Origin: Deltaproteobacteria bacterium
Lineage (GTDB): Bacteria; Desulfobacterota; Desulfobaccia; Desulfobaccales; 0-14-0-80-60-11
Reading direction: 5' to 3'
Assembly (NCBI GenBank): GCA_016874975.1
Contig: VGSQ01000009.1
Location: forward strand, 1 to 49,107
Length of the DNA stretch: 49,107 bases
Below are positions 4,894 through 13,400 of the stretch, piece by piece (position 1 is the stretch's first letter; each line of letters opens with the position of its first letter). Position numbers and translations under genes: made by a program. The notes beneath the pieces were generated by a model that was not told where the DNA came from, made no database searches, and saw only the letters and a list, made by a program, of their open reading frames with translations.

Positions 4894-5844
4894 CTACTTA
4901 TCGCTATGAGGGTCAAGAAATCGCGGTCCGTTAAAATGAATAAGATGTGACGGCGCATCTGCAACCCAAACTTCGGTTTCCCAAGCTATGTCCCGGAAAT
5001 AACGGGTCATAACTGAGCGCGAAGGAAAAGCCGTAACATATATCAAGCCCGCCGTTGCGCCAGTAAATAACCGAGCAAGTTCTATTTGGCGCTTTCCGTC
5101 AATAATGCCACTATGGGTTACAGATTCAATTAATAAAAGCCAATTTTTTTCAGGGTAATAGAAAACAACATCCGGCATTTTACCATGTTCATCGACCGTC
5201 ACGCCCAGCGTTGTCAGCAGTTCTTTATCAAAATAGCCCCATTTTTTGCCGGTATCGCCCACATAAACCAAATTGGCGCCTGGTACAAAGCGTGCAGCAA
5301 AAACCTCCACAATCGCCTTTATAAGCTCACTGTGTTGTCCGGGACTTATATTGATTATTTTACCAGGTGCGATTTTCACTGGTACAAGCTTTTGCATACG
5401 CTCTTTTGCGTAGCGCTCTGCAAGAGTCTTCCTTATAGAAAGATACTGTTTTAAATAGGTCTCCCATTTTTTCGTTTCATAGGTTTTCAGAAGTGTGAGT
5501 GTTTCAGGTAATATCTGGTAAACGGTATCAGGGCTGTTGGGTGGTCTTTCAGGCTTGTCGGGATTACAAATGGCTATGGCAGCTTCTACAAAAGGTTGTA
5601 CAGAATGTTTTCTTATGGTTTCACGTGTGTTTGGGGCGTATTTCTTGCCATAATGATTCCGGATGAAATCCATCATGGGCGTGATCCCGATAAGCGGATT
5701 TTCAGCCTGAGCCCACTTCTTTTCAGAAGTCAGATTTAATAGCGCCAATAGGCAAAGGGCTGAACGCTCGTTCCTTTGTGGCCTTGGAAGCCCGAGAGCT
5801 TCAAGGATTTTAAGAGCGTTTTTTATATGTTCGTTTCCTTCCAT
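4894..5844 (-). CDS. BsuBI/PstI-type type II restriction endonuclease
   Basis: 316 residues, the typical length of the BsuBI/PstI family, whose known members cut CTGCAG. The C-terminal nuclease half shows the family signature: LVYVGDTGKKWGYFD, then LGVTVDEHGKMPDVVFYYP, then NWLLLIESVTHSGIIDGKR (only sub-20 segments quoted), with the PD at about residue 222 and the E of IES acting in the PD-(D/E)xK-like site. The N-terminal part is helical. Its ATG lies inside the last codons of the methyltransferase gene (22-bp overlap), implying one operon with methylation translated first. Base composition is poorer in GC than neighbours, as usual for a mobile restriction-modification unit. Specificity CTGCAG is inference from family. 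Confidence 0.9.
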   Translation of the reverse strand: MEGNEHIKNALKILEALGLPRPQRNERSALCLLALLNLTSEKKWAQAENPLIGITPMMDFIRNHYGKKYAPNTRETIRKHSVQPFVEAAIAICNPDKPERPPNSPDTVYQILPETLTLLKTYETKKWETYLKQYLSIRKTLAERYAKERMQKLVPVKIAPGKIINISPGQHSELIKAIVEVFAARFVPGANLVYVGDTGKKWGYFDKELLTTLGVTVDEHGKMPDVVFYYPEKNWLLLIESVTHSGIIDGKRQIELARLFTGATAGLIYVTAFPSRSVMTRYFRDIAWETEVWVADAPSHLIHFNGPRFLDPHSDK

Positions 5845-7316
5845 GCGAGGCTTTCGATTTTCTTGTCAATTTCCTGTTGGTTCAGTTCTCCTTGACCTTT
5901 TGCCCAAACGCCAAGGCGAGTTAAAATCTCACGGCTTGGATATTTAAGCAAACGCAAGTCGGTTGCGTTTACCTGCGTATGACCACTAAAAAGGCGGAAT
6001 TGCTCATCAACCGCCGTGGAATTAAGGAACAACGTCAGGCCGCGGGCAAGATTTTCAGGAATCCCCTGTTTCCCGGAATGGAAGACATTGAGGTGATTTT
6101 CAAAGCCAAGCATAGAGCTACCATTAAAGGCGTCTGGAAAAACGACACTCGCCACAACACGACGCTTTTCTTCCTTAGATGAAAACCTCCTTACCACAAC
6201 ATAATATCCGTTCGGATAAAGCCATTTTTCAGTTTCAGCATTCTTCAGAATTGCGTTCGGTTTTTTCGCACCCGGCTTAGGCCAGTCAATAGCCTGCCCT
6301 GAAAAATGGGCGGGATAAAGAAGGGGCACAGTGCCCCTCTCCGGCATTTGTCGGAGATGAAACTTTAACCTAAAATCAACAACCGGCCCTGTTGAGACTT
6401 CAAGGCCAATTTCGGCAAGCGAAAAACGGATAGCCGGTGAAGTCTCAAGATGATTGCGTTCAGGGGAAGTGGGAACGTGAATGAAGCTCTCGGGATCATC
6501 GGGAAAAACGATCCTGTCAAAAGGGTAAACATTGGTTTCCATGTCAGTAAAACTATCGTCTGTTGATGTGGAGACGGTAACACTTCCCTGGGGTGCGTCC
6601 CGTTCAAGAAAAATAATGATATTTTCCTGTAATACATCATCATCTCTGAAGGCACGGTTACGGGCGGCGAATAAGTGAATGTACTTAATTGCCGTTTCAG
6701 CAAGGATAAGCTCGCGAAATGGCCGATAGTAAGGGCCATTGCAAAAACTGCGCGGGATAATCGCAACAATTTGGCCGCCCGGGTGCATGAGTCTTATTGT
6801 GAGAGCAACAAAGGCGGAATATAAGTTGACGGTTTCAATACCGACCCGGCGAAGCAAAAACCGATGACGGGACGCACTATGAATTTTTCTATAAGGAGGA
6901 TTCAGAATTGCATGAGTAAAACGCAATTCCCCTTGAAAAATAAGATTTACCGCCTCTTCAATAAAATCCCCCCGCCGTATGGAAATATCTATGTCAAAAC
7001 AGCCCTGATATTTTGCTAGTGTTTCGGCTAATAACTCCCGTAACTTAGGGTCAATCTCATAGGCCACGACTTGAACATGTTGAAAAGCGAACCCCTCTGC
7101 GAAGCGGTCTAAAGCAGCCCCTGACAGCGCACCCATGCCCGCGCCGGCATCTAAGAGAAAAACTGTTTTTAGGGTTGAAGGCGAGAACAGGGAGGCCATA
7201 AAGCGGGCAACCGTTGCGGGGGTCATAAACTGCCCCAGCTCGGATTTTCTTTTCTGGCTTATCTGCTGTCCCACTTTTTTGCGGACAGTTTCAGCTTGTT
7301 CAAGCAAGTGGGGCAT
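5823..7316 (-). CDS. N6-adenine DNA methyltransferase of the BsuBI/PstI-type system
   Basis: 497 residues. SAM-binding motif I is DAGAGMGALSGA (about 56-67), the catalytic motif IV is NPPY (139-142), and motif X-like GQFMTP lies at 28-33, an arrangement seen in gamma-type amino methyltransferases. The C-terminal half would be the target-recognition domain. It should protect host DNA from the overlapping downstream endonuclease by methylating adenine in the same site. First gene of the pair; a perfect inverted repeat precedes it at 7341-7360. All catalytic motifs are intact, so the system may be active. Confidence 0.92.
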   Translation of the reverse strand: MPHLLEQAETVRKKVGQQISQKRKSELGQFMTPATVARFMASLFSPSTLKTVFLLDAGAGMGALSGAALDRFAEGFAFQHVQVVAYEIDPKLRELLAETLAKYQGCFDIDISIRRGDFIEEAVNLIFQGELRFTHAILNPPYRKIHSASRHRFLLRRVGIETVNLYSAFVALTIRLMHPGGQIVAIIPRSFCNGPYYRPFRELILAETAIKYIHLFAARNRAFRDDDVLQENIIIFLERDAPQGSVTVSTSTDDSFTDMETNVYPFDRIVFPDDPESFIHVPTSPERNHLETSPAIRFSLAEIGLEVSTGPVVDFRLKFHLRQMPERGTVPLLYPAHFSGQAIDWPKPGAKKPNAILKNAETEKWLYPNGYYVVVRRFSSKEEKRRVVASVVFPDAFNGSSMLGFENHLNVFHSGKQGIPENLARGLTLFLNSTAVDEQFRLFSGHTQVNATDLRLLKYPSREILTRLGVWAKGQGELNQQEIDKKIESLAWKETNI

Positions 7317-10178: not shown

Positions 10179-10473
10179 GCACCCTCCGGGCTTCTGAAAC
10201 CTTGCTTTCCTATTATCGACTAGAAGAGCTTAAATTTTAACCCCATTTTCACCTGGCTCCGGCTTCTGCGCACCCCTGGCCGATTGCAAAGCCCCGGCGA
10301 ATATGATACCGTCTGCCAGGAATTGCTTGAGATTTCCCGACAATGATGGCTTTGGGTCGGCGCGGCCGCACCCCCGCGCCCGAATATACCCTGACCGGGG
10401 ATGGGCGGAAGGCAAGGTATGCGTGCGCCTGTTTACGGCTTGCCGGTGGCCCCCGCTCCTGGAGGAGAATCGC

Positions 10474-10722
10474 TTGAACATTGCCGACGACTCTGCCGAG
10501 GCGGCCCTGGCCGATAAGGTGCGCCCTCTGGTGAACGACATTTTAGCCCGATTCAACAGCGAAGGCATCACCCCCCAGGAAGCGGGAATGGTGATCCTGG
10601 CCCTGACCCATCGGCTCCTGGGGGTTCTGAAGGACCATCCGGAAGATCGTCAGGCCTTTGTCATGAAATTCATCAACCTGGTCAACACCTTCCTGGCCGG
10701 TCAGATGGCGCCACCGGCCTGA
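10474..10722 (+). CDS. Small hypothetical helical protein (82 aa)
   Basis: I chose the TTG at 10474 because a strong ribosome binding site (GGAGGAGAA) lies just before it; an in-frame ATG at 10303 gives an N terminus of random composition. The 82-residue product is acidic at the N terminus and helical, with a hydrophobic core (EAGMVILALTHRLLGVLK) and no signal peptide or known motif that I recognise. It ends 34 bases before the cysteine synthase-CysRS fusion on the same strand and is probably cotranscribed with it. Confidence 0.6.
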   Translation: MNIADDSAEAALADKVRPLVNDILARFNSEGITPQEAGMVILALTHRLLGVLKDHPEDRQAFVMKFINLVNTFLAGQMAPPA

Positions 10723-10756: not shown

Positions 10757-13060
10757 ATGCCCGGCATAGCCTCTTCCATCCTGGAGACGATGGGCGCCAC
10801 TCCCATCGTCCGCCTGAACCGCCTCAACCCCAACCCCCGGGTGGAGGTCTGCGTCAAGCTGGAGTACTTCAATCCCGGCGGCTCCGTCAAGGACCGGCCG
10901 GCCCTGGCCATGATCGAAGCCGCAGAGGCCGCCGGCCACCTCACCCCGGATAAGACGGTGCTGGAGGCCACCAGCGGCAACACCGGCATCGGCCTGGCCA
11001 TAGTCTGCGCGGTCAAGGGCTACCGGCTGCTGTTGGCCATGCCCGAGTCCGCCAGCCTGGAGCGCAAGCGCATCCTCAAGGCCATGGGAGCGCAGCTCCT
11101 CCTCACCCCGGCCCACCAGGGCACCGACGGCGCCATCGAGGAGGCCTACCGCCTGGCCCGGGAAAACCCGGAGGCCTACTTCCTGGTGGACCAGTTCAAC
11201 AACCCCCACAACCCCGTATCTCACGCCCACACCGCCCGGGAAATCTGGGAGCAGACCGGGGGCCGGGTCACCGCGGTGGTGGCCACCATAGGCACCTGCG
11301 GCACCCTCATGGGGCTGACCCGCTACCTCAAGGAAATCAATCCCGCCGTCCAGGTGGTGGGGGTGGAGCCCTACCTGGGCCACGCCATCCAGGGGCTGAA
11401 AAATCTGAAGGAATCCTATGTGCCGGGCATTTTCGTCAAGGGGCAGGCCGACCGGATCGTCAACGTGGAGGACGAAGAGGCCTTTGAAACGGCCCGGCGC
11501 CTGGCCCGGCAGGAAGGCCTCTTTCTGGGCATGAGCTCCGGGGCGGCGGTGGCTGTGGCCCTGCGTCTGGCCCGGGAGATGGACTCCGGCCTCATCCTGG
11601 CCATCGCCCCGGACAGCGGCGAGCGGTACCTGTCCACACCCCTCTATTCCGAAAAGGAAGCCCCCAGCCTCCACTTTTACAACACCCTGTCCCGGAGCAA
11701 GGAGCCCTTCCAGCCCCTCAAGCAGGGGGAGGCGGCGCTGTTTGTGGACGGCCCGGCCCTGCACGCCAACCTCACCCTGGGGATGGCCCGGCGCCTGGTG
11801 CTGGCCGATCTGGTGCAGCGCTCCCTGCAATTCCGGGGCTTCACCATCCACCGGCTGGTGAGCCTCATCGACGTGGACGACCGGGCCATCGCCGGGGCTG
11901 AAGCCGCGGGCCAGGACCTGGCCCGCTTCACCACCCGCTTCCGGGAGGAGTTTACCGAAGACCTGGCCGCCCTGCGCATCCTTCCCGGCGGCCACTTCCC
12001 CCTGGCCTCCCGCCACATGGACGACATGGTGGACTTCACCCGGCGGCTCCTGGAGCGGGGCTTTGCCTATGAAAAACTGCGCTCCGTCTATTTCGACATC
12101 TCCCGCTTCAAGGATTACGGGCGCCTTTCCCGCCTGGACCTGACCAAGATCAGGGTGGGCAAGACCGTGGATCTGGACGAATACGCCAAGGAGAACCCCC
12201 GGGACTTCACCCTGCTGAAACGGGCCAAGCTGGGAGAGCTGAAAAAGGGCATTTACTACACCACGCCCTGGGGGCAGGTGCGCCCCAGTTGGCACCTCAT
12301 CTGCGCCGCCCTGGCCCTCAAATACCTGGGCGGCGCCGCCGATTTCCACGTGGGCGGCATCGAGTCCCTCTTCCCCCACGAAGAGAACGAAAACGCCCTG
12401 TTCACCGCAGCTACCGGCAAGCCCCTGGCCCGGTTCTGGCTGCACAGCGAGCACGTGCTCAGGGACGGCCGCCCCTTAAGGGAAACGGGCGAGGTGACGG
12501 TGCGGGATCTGCTGGCCCAGGGGAGCCGGGGCGAGGATGTGCGCTATTTCCTGCTCTCCACCCACTACCGCAAGCCCCTCACCTTTACGGCGGAGAGCCT
12601 GGCCGCCGCGGCCCGGGCCCGGGCCCGCTTCGACCACCTGCTGCTCAGGCTGTCCCTGACCGAAGGCGACGACGCCCCCACCGGAGCCCTGGAAGAGCGC
12701 CTTTTCCAGGCCAAGAAAGAAGTGACCGCGGCCCTGGACGACGACCTGAACGTGGCCCGGGCCCTGTCCCACCTCTTCAACCTGGCGGCCGAGGTCAACG
12801 CCGACCTGGACCGGGGCCGCCTGGGGAAGAACGGGGCCGCCGCGGTCAAGTCGCGGCTGGCCGAACTGGACGAAATCCTGGGGGTGATGAACCCGCCCCA
12901 ACATATGCGGGACGAAGCCGTGGAGGCCCGCCTGGCGGAGCGCGAAGAGGCCCGGCGGCGCCGGGACTGGGCCACCGCGGACCGCATCCGGGACGAGCTG
13001 GCCCAGGCCGGCATCGACGTCACCGACACCCCCGCCGGCCCCCGCTGGCAGCGGCGGTGA
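10757..13060 (+). CDS. CysM-type cysteine synthase fused to a catalytically degenerate CysRS-like domain
   Basis: 767 residues. Residues 1-302 are a PLP fold-type II cysteine synthase: PLP lysine K45 in NPGGSVKDR, TSGNTG at 71-76, phosphate loop GTCGT at 178-182, SSGAA and PDSGERYLS near the end. The stretch after VGVEPYLG (IQGLKNLKESYVPGIF) is closest to CysM. Residues about 303-767 align over the whole length of cysteinyl-tRNA synthetase (HFYNTLSRSKEPFQPL at the start, AERE-type tail at the end). Both class I catalytic motifs are lost: HIGH is TLGM (340-343) and KMSKS is replaced by PLRET with a two-residue deletion (573-577). Of the four zinc ligands that bind cysteine, one cysteine is D331 but C516, H541 and E545 remain; the anticodon-binding end is retained. 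The synthase looks active; the CysRS part probably cannot adenylate cysteine and may sense or bind cysteine or tRNA. It could be mistaken for cysS. Confidence 0.9.
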   Translation: MPGIASSILETMGATPIVRLNRLNPNPRVEVCVKLEYFNPGGSVKDRPALAMIEAAEAAGHLTPDKTVLEATSGNTGIGLAIVCAVKGYRLLLAMPESASLERKRILKAMGAQLLLTPAHQGTDGAIEEAYRLARENPEAYFLVDQFNNPHNPVSHAHTAREIWEQTGGRVTAVVATIGTCGTLMGLTRYLKEINPAVQVVGVEPYLGHAIQGLKNLKESYVPGIFVKGQADRIVNVEDEEAFETARRLARQEGLFLGMSSGAAVAVALRLAREMDSGLILAIAPDSGERYLSTPLYSEKEAPSLHFYNTLSRSKEPFQPLKQGEAALFVDGPALHANLTLGMARRLVLADLVQRSLQFRGFTIHRLVSLIDVDDRAIAGAEAAGQDLARFTTRFREEFTEDLAALRILPGGHFPLASRHMDDMVDFTRRLLERGFAYEKLRSVYFDISRFKDYGRLSRLDLTKIRVGKTVDLDEYAKENPRDFTLLKRAKLGELKKGIYYTTPWGQVRPSWHLICAALALKYLGGAADFHVGGIESLFPHEENENALFTAATGKPLARFWLHSEHVLRDGRPLRETGEVTVRDLLAQGSRGEDVRYFLLSTHYRKPLTFTAESLAAAARARARFDHLLLRLSLTEGDDAPTGALEERLFQAKKEVTAALDDDLNVARALSHLFNLAAEVNADLDRGRLGKNGAAAVKSRLAELDEILGVMNPPQHMRDEAVEARLAEREEARRRRDWATADRIRDELAQAGIDVTDTPAGPRWQRR

Positions 13061-13064
13061 GGGC

Positions 13065-13400
13065 TGTGGGGGGAGGACGGGGGAGCAATGGCTCCTGTGG
13101 CGCAGGCGTCTCGCCTGCGGACCCCCCCCACACCCCCCTCCCAACCCCCATTAGTGGGGGACGGAGAATCCCACTGGTTCCCAAGTTGAACTTGGGAACC
13201 AGATAGCGGGGAGCCCCCAATGAGGGGGGTGAAGAGGAGGCTGGGGAGGAAGCCGGGGCAGGCGCCCCGGCCTGGTTCCCCAGCTCCTGCTTGGGAACCC
13301 ACTTGCCCTCCGAGCAGACCTGCTATAGCAAGCAGGTCCGCACTGGTTCCCCAGCTCCTGCTTGGGAACCCCCTTGTCCGCCAAGCTCTGCTTGGCGAAA
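13065..13400. repeat. Repeat cluster downstream of the fusion gene
   Basis: The 389-base gap 13061-13449 holds a G-rich/C-rich arm pair (13065-13150) enclosing a GCAGGCG...CGCCTGC palindrome (13102-13119), a perfect palindrome with 13-bp arms CTGGTTCCCAAGT (13174-13202), two near-identical copies of GGTTCCCCAGCTCCTGC (13274-13300 and 13345-13371), and CCGCCAAGCTCTGCTTGGCG (13379-13398). No gene is supported. Confidence 0.8.

Follow-up and report, generated by a model that had tools for sequence, protein, structure and literature searches.

Architecture of the locus

The window, that is, the whole stretch of 49,107 nucleotides which was analysed, carries a 767-residue open reading frame on its forward strand (10757–13060, + strand), which starts with ATG, has no internal stop and encodes two protein halves in one frame. 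It is a real gene, in one open frame: a fusion of a CysM-type cysteine synthase and a CysRS-like domain, as seen from the two-domain NCBIfam and Pfam matches, an alignment of 33 members (A1) and a wider survey.

The first half (residues 1–300; 10757–11656, + strand) is a PLP-dependent cysteine synthase domain of the CysM type, whose predicted fold matches CysK and CysM structures. Residues 9–297 match the cysKM model TIGR01136 with 365 bits (E 2.9e-109), above the cut-off of 344 bits. The synthase was described as intact in a preliminary description of the sequence, and indeed K45 at the PLP-binding lysine position (10889–10891, + strand), the TSGNTG loop (72–77) and the GTCGT motif (179–183) are all present; K45 and SGNTG are invariant in A1. 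The second half (residues 301–767; 11657–13057, + strand) is a CysRS-like pseudo-synthetase. Residues 305–766 align with the entire cysS model TIGR00435 (E 1.3e-94), so that the synthase does run directly into a full-length CysRS homolog, the score of which (318 bits) is below the curated cut-off of 340 bits. Pfam recognises PALP, the CysRS catalytic domain, DALR_2 and the CysS anticodon-binding domain, and no single model among the 25 best matches listed from NCBIfam spans both halves. Nor does the protein qualify as an MshC, which is defined by the cut-off of TIGR03447 and by ATP-binding motifs: it scores 150 bits for a cut-off of 485 bits.

The AlphaFold model of the whole protein has a mean pLDDT of 87.4 and a pTM of 0.67, and the packing of the two domains against each other in this model is uncertain. 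The model matches chain B of 1u0b, the CysRS from the complex with tRNA-Cys (486 columns, E 2.6e-37), as well as CysK and CysM structures.

A small ORF lies just upstream of the fusion (10303–10722, + strand). It has no match in Pfam. At 16 loci, drawn from the same family and the sister family, its C-terminal ~75 residues are found conserved beside the fusion, which makes it a putative partner only. No operon partner of the fusion is conserved across the phylum, and no dedicated tRNA-Cys paralog occurs near the fusion in 58 loci or in the window. Downstream, a perfect 25-bp palindrome, GGTTCCCAAGTTGAACTTGGGAACC (13176–13200), separates the fusion from the gene of a SHOCT protein; together with similar GGGAACC stretches nearby, it suggests a repeat element. 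The window also contains a lone gene for a DNA methylase of the Eco57I/N6 type (5823–7316).

Loss of the catalytic motifs

The alignment with E. coli CysRS confirms the motif losses that were first described. The HIGH position is occupied by TLGM (T340 to M343; 11774–11785, + strand) and that of KMSKS by PLRE (P573 to E576; 12473–12484, + strand), with a deletion of two residues, so neither signature of a CysRS is present. The zinc ligands C28, C209, H234 and E238 correspond to D331, C516, H541 and E545, as had been proposed, and three of the four ligands are retained. The CysRS-like half of this protein most probably no longer activates cysteine.

We aligned the CysRS-like domains of 93 fusions with standalone CysRS. 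HIGH, counted as kept when H37 and G39 are present, is found in 38 of them, KMSKS (K266, M267 and S268) in 30, and the complete zinc quartet in 41. Both catalytic motifs are gone in 51 fusions. The minimum numbers of changes on a tree of the CysM half only are 14 for HIGH, 10 for KMSKS and 9 for the zinc quartet; the survey of this architecture across genomes thus reveals losses of HIGH and KMSKS that are repeated, independent and phylum-wide. The persistence of three ligands, which the preliminary description had emphasised, holds for the protein in the window and not as a trait of the family. V replaces E238 in the sister family and K does so in four near relatives, four have S instead of C209, and C28I, C209I and E238L occur together in a far relative. 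The most degenerate member found, L194, combines C28I, H37D, C209I and E238L with a deletion of KMSKS. H234 is nevertheless kept in 93/93 fusions, and W205 in 90/93.

Both HIGH and KMSKS are kept in 26/93 fusions, 19 of which also have the zinc quartet. The ancestor of the family was therefore probably able to activate cysteine, and the lineages that keep the motifs may still aminoacylate. The loss of the motifs has no apparent link with the presence of a second CysK across the fusion genomes compared.

Distribution, origin and selection

A profile made from 33 fusions has matches in 156 of 395 sampled genomes, which belong to 99 genera; the survey covers families sampled within Desulfobacterota. 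There is one copy per genome, nearly always full length, and only a few copies are truncated at a contig end or interrupted by a frame break. The fusion is also present in closed chromosomes (e.g., G024 and G055). These 156 genomes and the closed contigs rule out the possibility, raised at the outset, that an assembly error joined two genes. In one single-contig genome (L089, G041:C1:2737672–2739059), the fusion is interrupted by a frame break that lies within the CysRS-like half and is followed by an in-frame TGA; this could be decay, recoding or a sequencing error.

A tree built by a quick method from the CysRS domains of 34 fusions and 39 standalone proteins separates the fusions from the rest by a branch whose SH-aLRT support is full, which indicates a single origin of their CysRS-like domain. 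In ten pairs of relatives that have lost the motifs, the dN/dS ratio of this half is 0.11–0.29, higher than that of the CysM half; these values indicate that the CysRS-like half is under purifying selection and is not decaying.

The canonical CysRS

Among 59 genomes close to the source genome, those of the same family and the same order carry a canonical CysRS (~500 residues, about 525–590 bits) in addition to the fusion (~780 residues), the exceptions being drafts of lower completeness in which a copy is broken or absent. In a set of 60 other fusion genomes that are at least 90% complete, every one has a CysRS match apart from the fusion. This match is full length in 58 genomes, split at contig ends in G092, and canonical where complete; in G067 a piece of 251 residues, located away from the fusion, is the only CysRS match of any kind at the threshold used. 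The fusion and canonical cysS genes are not neighbours.

The preliminary description had called for a search for a canonical cysS, the absence of which, together with aminoacylation by the fusion, was to count against a new function. No CysRS other than the fusion was found in the source genome (94.28% complete, 217 contigs), and such an absence therefore does apply to this draft, whereas a second CysRS-family match exists in 60/60 of the other fusion genomes. As all of these have a separate match, the gene is probably missing because of an assembly gap. An indirect route by SepRS and SepCysS was considered as an explanation and ruled out: in the source genome these two models give only weak matches, far below both cut-offs. 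The cysS gene of relatives is found close to uvrB and rimI. In the source genome, these two genes are on a contig fragment of 3,980 bp that lacks cysS and has another gene as their neighbour, which fits either a gap or a rearrangement, neither of which is proven.

The repeated loss of the motifs, the purifying selection and the presence of a canonical CysRS alongside support the initial proposal of a catalytically dead CysRS-like domain that would have acquired a new job.

The retained anticodon reader

In the E. coli complex, as reported in PMC12684709 (citing Hauenstein 2004), R427, D436 and W432 contact G34 of tRNA-Cys, and R423 does so through water. The anticodon-binding domain of the window protein (residues 715–767; 12899–13057, + strand), recognised by Pfam and by the alignments, retains all of these contacts: R729, R733, W738 and D742 correspond to R423, R427, W432 and D436, and D757 to D451. 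In the family, R423, D436, R439, D451 and an aromatic residue at position 432 (W, F or Y) are found in 93/93 fusions, and R427 in 91/93. All 51 fusions which have lost both catalytic motifs retain R423, R427 and D436, and even the degenerate L194 keeps R423, R427, F432, D436, R439 and D451. On the tree of the CysM half, R423, D436 and D451 never change, and R427 changes twice. The extreme C terminus, W458 included, is missing in some lineages (e.g., L124 and L154).

The sites that are invariant in canonical CysRS have a mean retention in fusions of 0.95 in the anticodon domain (seven sites) vs 0.65 in the catalytic core (seventy sites), a difference with p=0.002 in a rank test. The loss is thus selective, as was first noticed; the part that has been retained is mainly the anticodon reader, and not the cysteine site. 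The anticodon reader is the common denominator of the fusion family. The recognition of tRNA-Cys, one of the jobs suggested in the preliminary description, gains strong support from these residues, although they could matter for folding as well.

Conservation is low over much of the CysRS-like domain. Its best-conserved part is a segment of the connective peptide (residues 437–498; 12065–12250, + strand; YEKLRSVYFD...VGKTVDLDEYAKENPRDFTLLKRAKLGELKKG), which was delimited from the alignments and has near-invariant residues that are specific to the fusions, namely S443, T470, R489, L495 and K496.

Substrate of the synthase half

The substrate loop of the synthase, HAIQGLKNLKESYVPGIF (residues 209–226; 11381–11434, + strand), was defined from the alignment and from local matches. 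G213, K215, N216, E219, P223 and I225 are found in 100% of the 93 fusions, and the motif GLKNMKES has local matches only to the CysM of E. coli and Salmonella and to that of M. tuberculosis.

The fusion is the only CysK/CysM (E 1e-60) in 31 fusion genomes from 20 families. No CysE that would supply O-acetylserine is detected (E 1e-15) in 30 of these 31; the exception, G078, has a weak match only. In contrast, CysE is present in 28/28 fusion genomes which have an extra CysK (Fisher p=5e-16, an optimistic value since the genomes are not independent). CysE thus accompanies the extra CysK and not the fusion, and according to this phyletic pattern the fusion synthase is independent of CysE and has no need of O-acetylserine. 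SerA, which catalyses the first step toward O-phosphoserine, is present in 30 of the 31 fusion-only genomes. O-phosphoserine is the likely substrate, because CysE is not needed, SerA is nearly always present and the loop resembles that of M. tuberculosis CysM; serine itself or another activated serine is possible. In the source genome, a cysE adjoins a standalone cysK (G000:C8:20593–22079), so the O-acetylserine route has been retained beside the fusion.

Possible function of the fusion

We propose that the fusion is a CysE-independent cysteine synthase which binds tRNA-Cys, and whose activity is tuned by the level or the charging state of this tRNA; we regard this proposal as having an even chance of being correct. 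In the N-terminal PLP domain, sulfide would react with an activated serine, most likely O-phosphoserine, whose source is not CysE, to give cysteine. The C-terminal half would not activate cysteine; it has preserved its fold, together with the DALR/anticodon-binding domain and those residues which read G34. It would most likely dock tRNA-Cys without charging it, as its residues suggest, and the level or charging state of the docked tRNA would be coupled to the synthase, in the manner of the HisRS-like domain of Gcn2 or of HisZ with HisG. We favour a regulation of the enzyme by the bound tRNA-Cys over a pure scaffold. More tentatively, tRNA-Cys might exert allosteric control over cysteine biosynthesis in much of the phylum, its GCA anticodon being read by the fused pseudo-CysRS; this would be a post-translational counterpart of the T-box, located in the enzyme itself.

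The same retention of the anticodon residues would be expected if the domain held tRNA-Cys, or contacted the canonical CysRS, for an efficient loading of cysteine without any allostery, and the fusion-specific segment of the connective peptide is a possible contact surface. Such a complex is hypothetical, however, and the separate location of the two genes argues against it; this scaffold is rather unlikely. Cysteine channelling or storage, two other jobs suggested at first, are conceivable. The same low probability is assigned to a feedback sensor, also put forward in the preliminary description, in which the old cysteine/zinc pocket would bind cysteine and inhibit the synthase with no involvement of tRNA. 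The conservation of H234 and W205, the three remaining zinc ligands of the window protein and the precedent of HisZ, a HisRS paralog that gives feedback control (PMC9437257), are in its favour. It is weakened because the ligands are not conserved: the quartet is incomplete in most fusions, and C28, C209 and E238 have been repeatedly lost, also within the order of the source organism. A sensor would moreover give no reason for the anticodon reader being the best-kept part. More doubtful still is the idea that the synthase needs its C-terminal half, as a structural relic, for folding or oligomerisation alone. The dN/dS of this half, above that of the CysM half, and the low conservation of much of the domain are consistent with this idea, but almost all of the 93 proteins, across tens of families, have the base-reading residues unaltered, including those with a destroyed active site.

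The fusions that keep both motifs, most of them with the quartet, could point to a drifted ligase which aminoacylates tRNA-Cys or has an MshC-like activity. This is very unlikely, given that the window protein lacks HIGH, KMSKS and C28, that its MshC score is far below the cut-off, and that both motifs have been lost in more than half of the fusions while the gene is under purifying selection; the MshC-like ligation suggested at first can hardly be maintained without HIGH and KMSKS. Least probable of all, and scarcely credible, is a cysteine persulfide synthase. E. coli CysRS has been reported to have such an activity, which is assisted by PLP and requires the lysines of KIIK and KMSK (PMC5660078), and here a CysRS-like half is fused to a PLP enzyme. 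These lysines are missing from the window protein, which has R376 at the position of K73 and replacements of K266 and K269; among the 93 fusions, K73 is kept in 38 and K76 in 6.

Comparison with known systems

Paralogs of tRNA synthetases that work outside translation are known: HisZ, Gcn2 and MshC. One close analogy is with HisZ, a paralog of HisRS which is the regulatory subunit of the ATP phosphoribosyltransferase HisG (PMC9437257): in both cases, a non-aminoacylating paralog of the cognate synthetase is attached to a biosynthetic enzyme of the same amino acid. The two are not homologous. HisZ is a separate subunit of the class II type that mediates feedback by histidine, whereas the pseudo-synthetase half of the fusion is of class I, belongs to the same chain as the synthase and still has its anticodon-binding domain, much of the amino-acid site being gone. 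The HisRS-like domain of Gcn2 has been retained within a fused regulatory protein, where its task is to sense uncharged tRNA (PMC4335047). Gcn2 is a eukaryotic kinase, while the fusion is a biosynthetic PLP synthase whose tRNA sensing is deduced from its residues.

MshC, involved in mycothiol synthesis, is also a CysRS paralog with a non-translational role and a similar fold (3c8z). However, it is an ATP-dependent ligase, unlike the fusion, which has neither HIGH nor KMSKS, keeps the anticodon domain and does not reach the MshC cut-off. As to the first half, the M. tuberculosis CysM (3dki), an O-phosphoserine sulfhydrylase, shares with the fusion the CysM fold, the LRNM/LKNM loop and a chemistry that is independent of CysE; it is a standalone enzyme and works with the carrier protein CysO.

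In the literature covered, which leaves out most subscription journals, no account was found of an amino-acid synthase that is fused to its own cognate synthetase in a dead form with the anticodon reader kept, so that an earlier mention is possible. The statement that this combination has no described function stands within that coverage. If tRNA-Cys does control the fusion or dock on it, the demand of translation would feed straight back on the synthesis of an amino acid within one polypeptide. The fusion also bears on the way in which cysteine is made without CysE in Desulfobacterota. Automatic labels such as "cysteine synthase" or "cysteine--tRNA ligase" conceal this protein.

Other non-canonical CysRS have been described in the same phylum. 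The CysRS* of Desulfobacterales is an active enzyme that charges SelC* and has no anticodon-binding domain (PMC9437257). Like the fusion, it occurs beside a canonical CysRS; the fusion is its reverse in having the anticodon-binding domain, and would be so with respect to activity and to the charging of SelC*. Four genomes have extra CysRS-type matches of ~420 residues (G158:C61:164356, G291:C6:115358, G294:C34:19106 and G313:C32:31336), which lack the last ~55–65 positions of the profile and could be CysRS* of Desulfobacterales. Lastly, L080 (G047:C1:594025–595398) is a further CysRS, with HLGN and KMAKS, followed in the same 742-residue frame by what looks like a family 2 glycosyltransferase region, and it is another unusual CysRS fusion.
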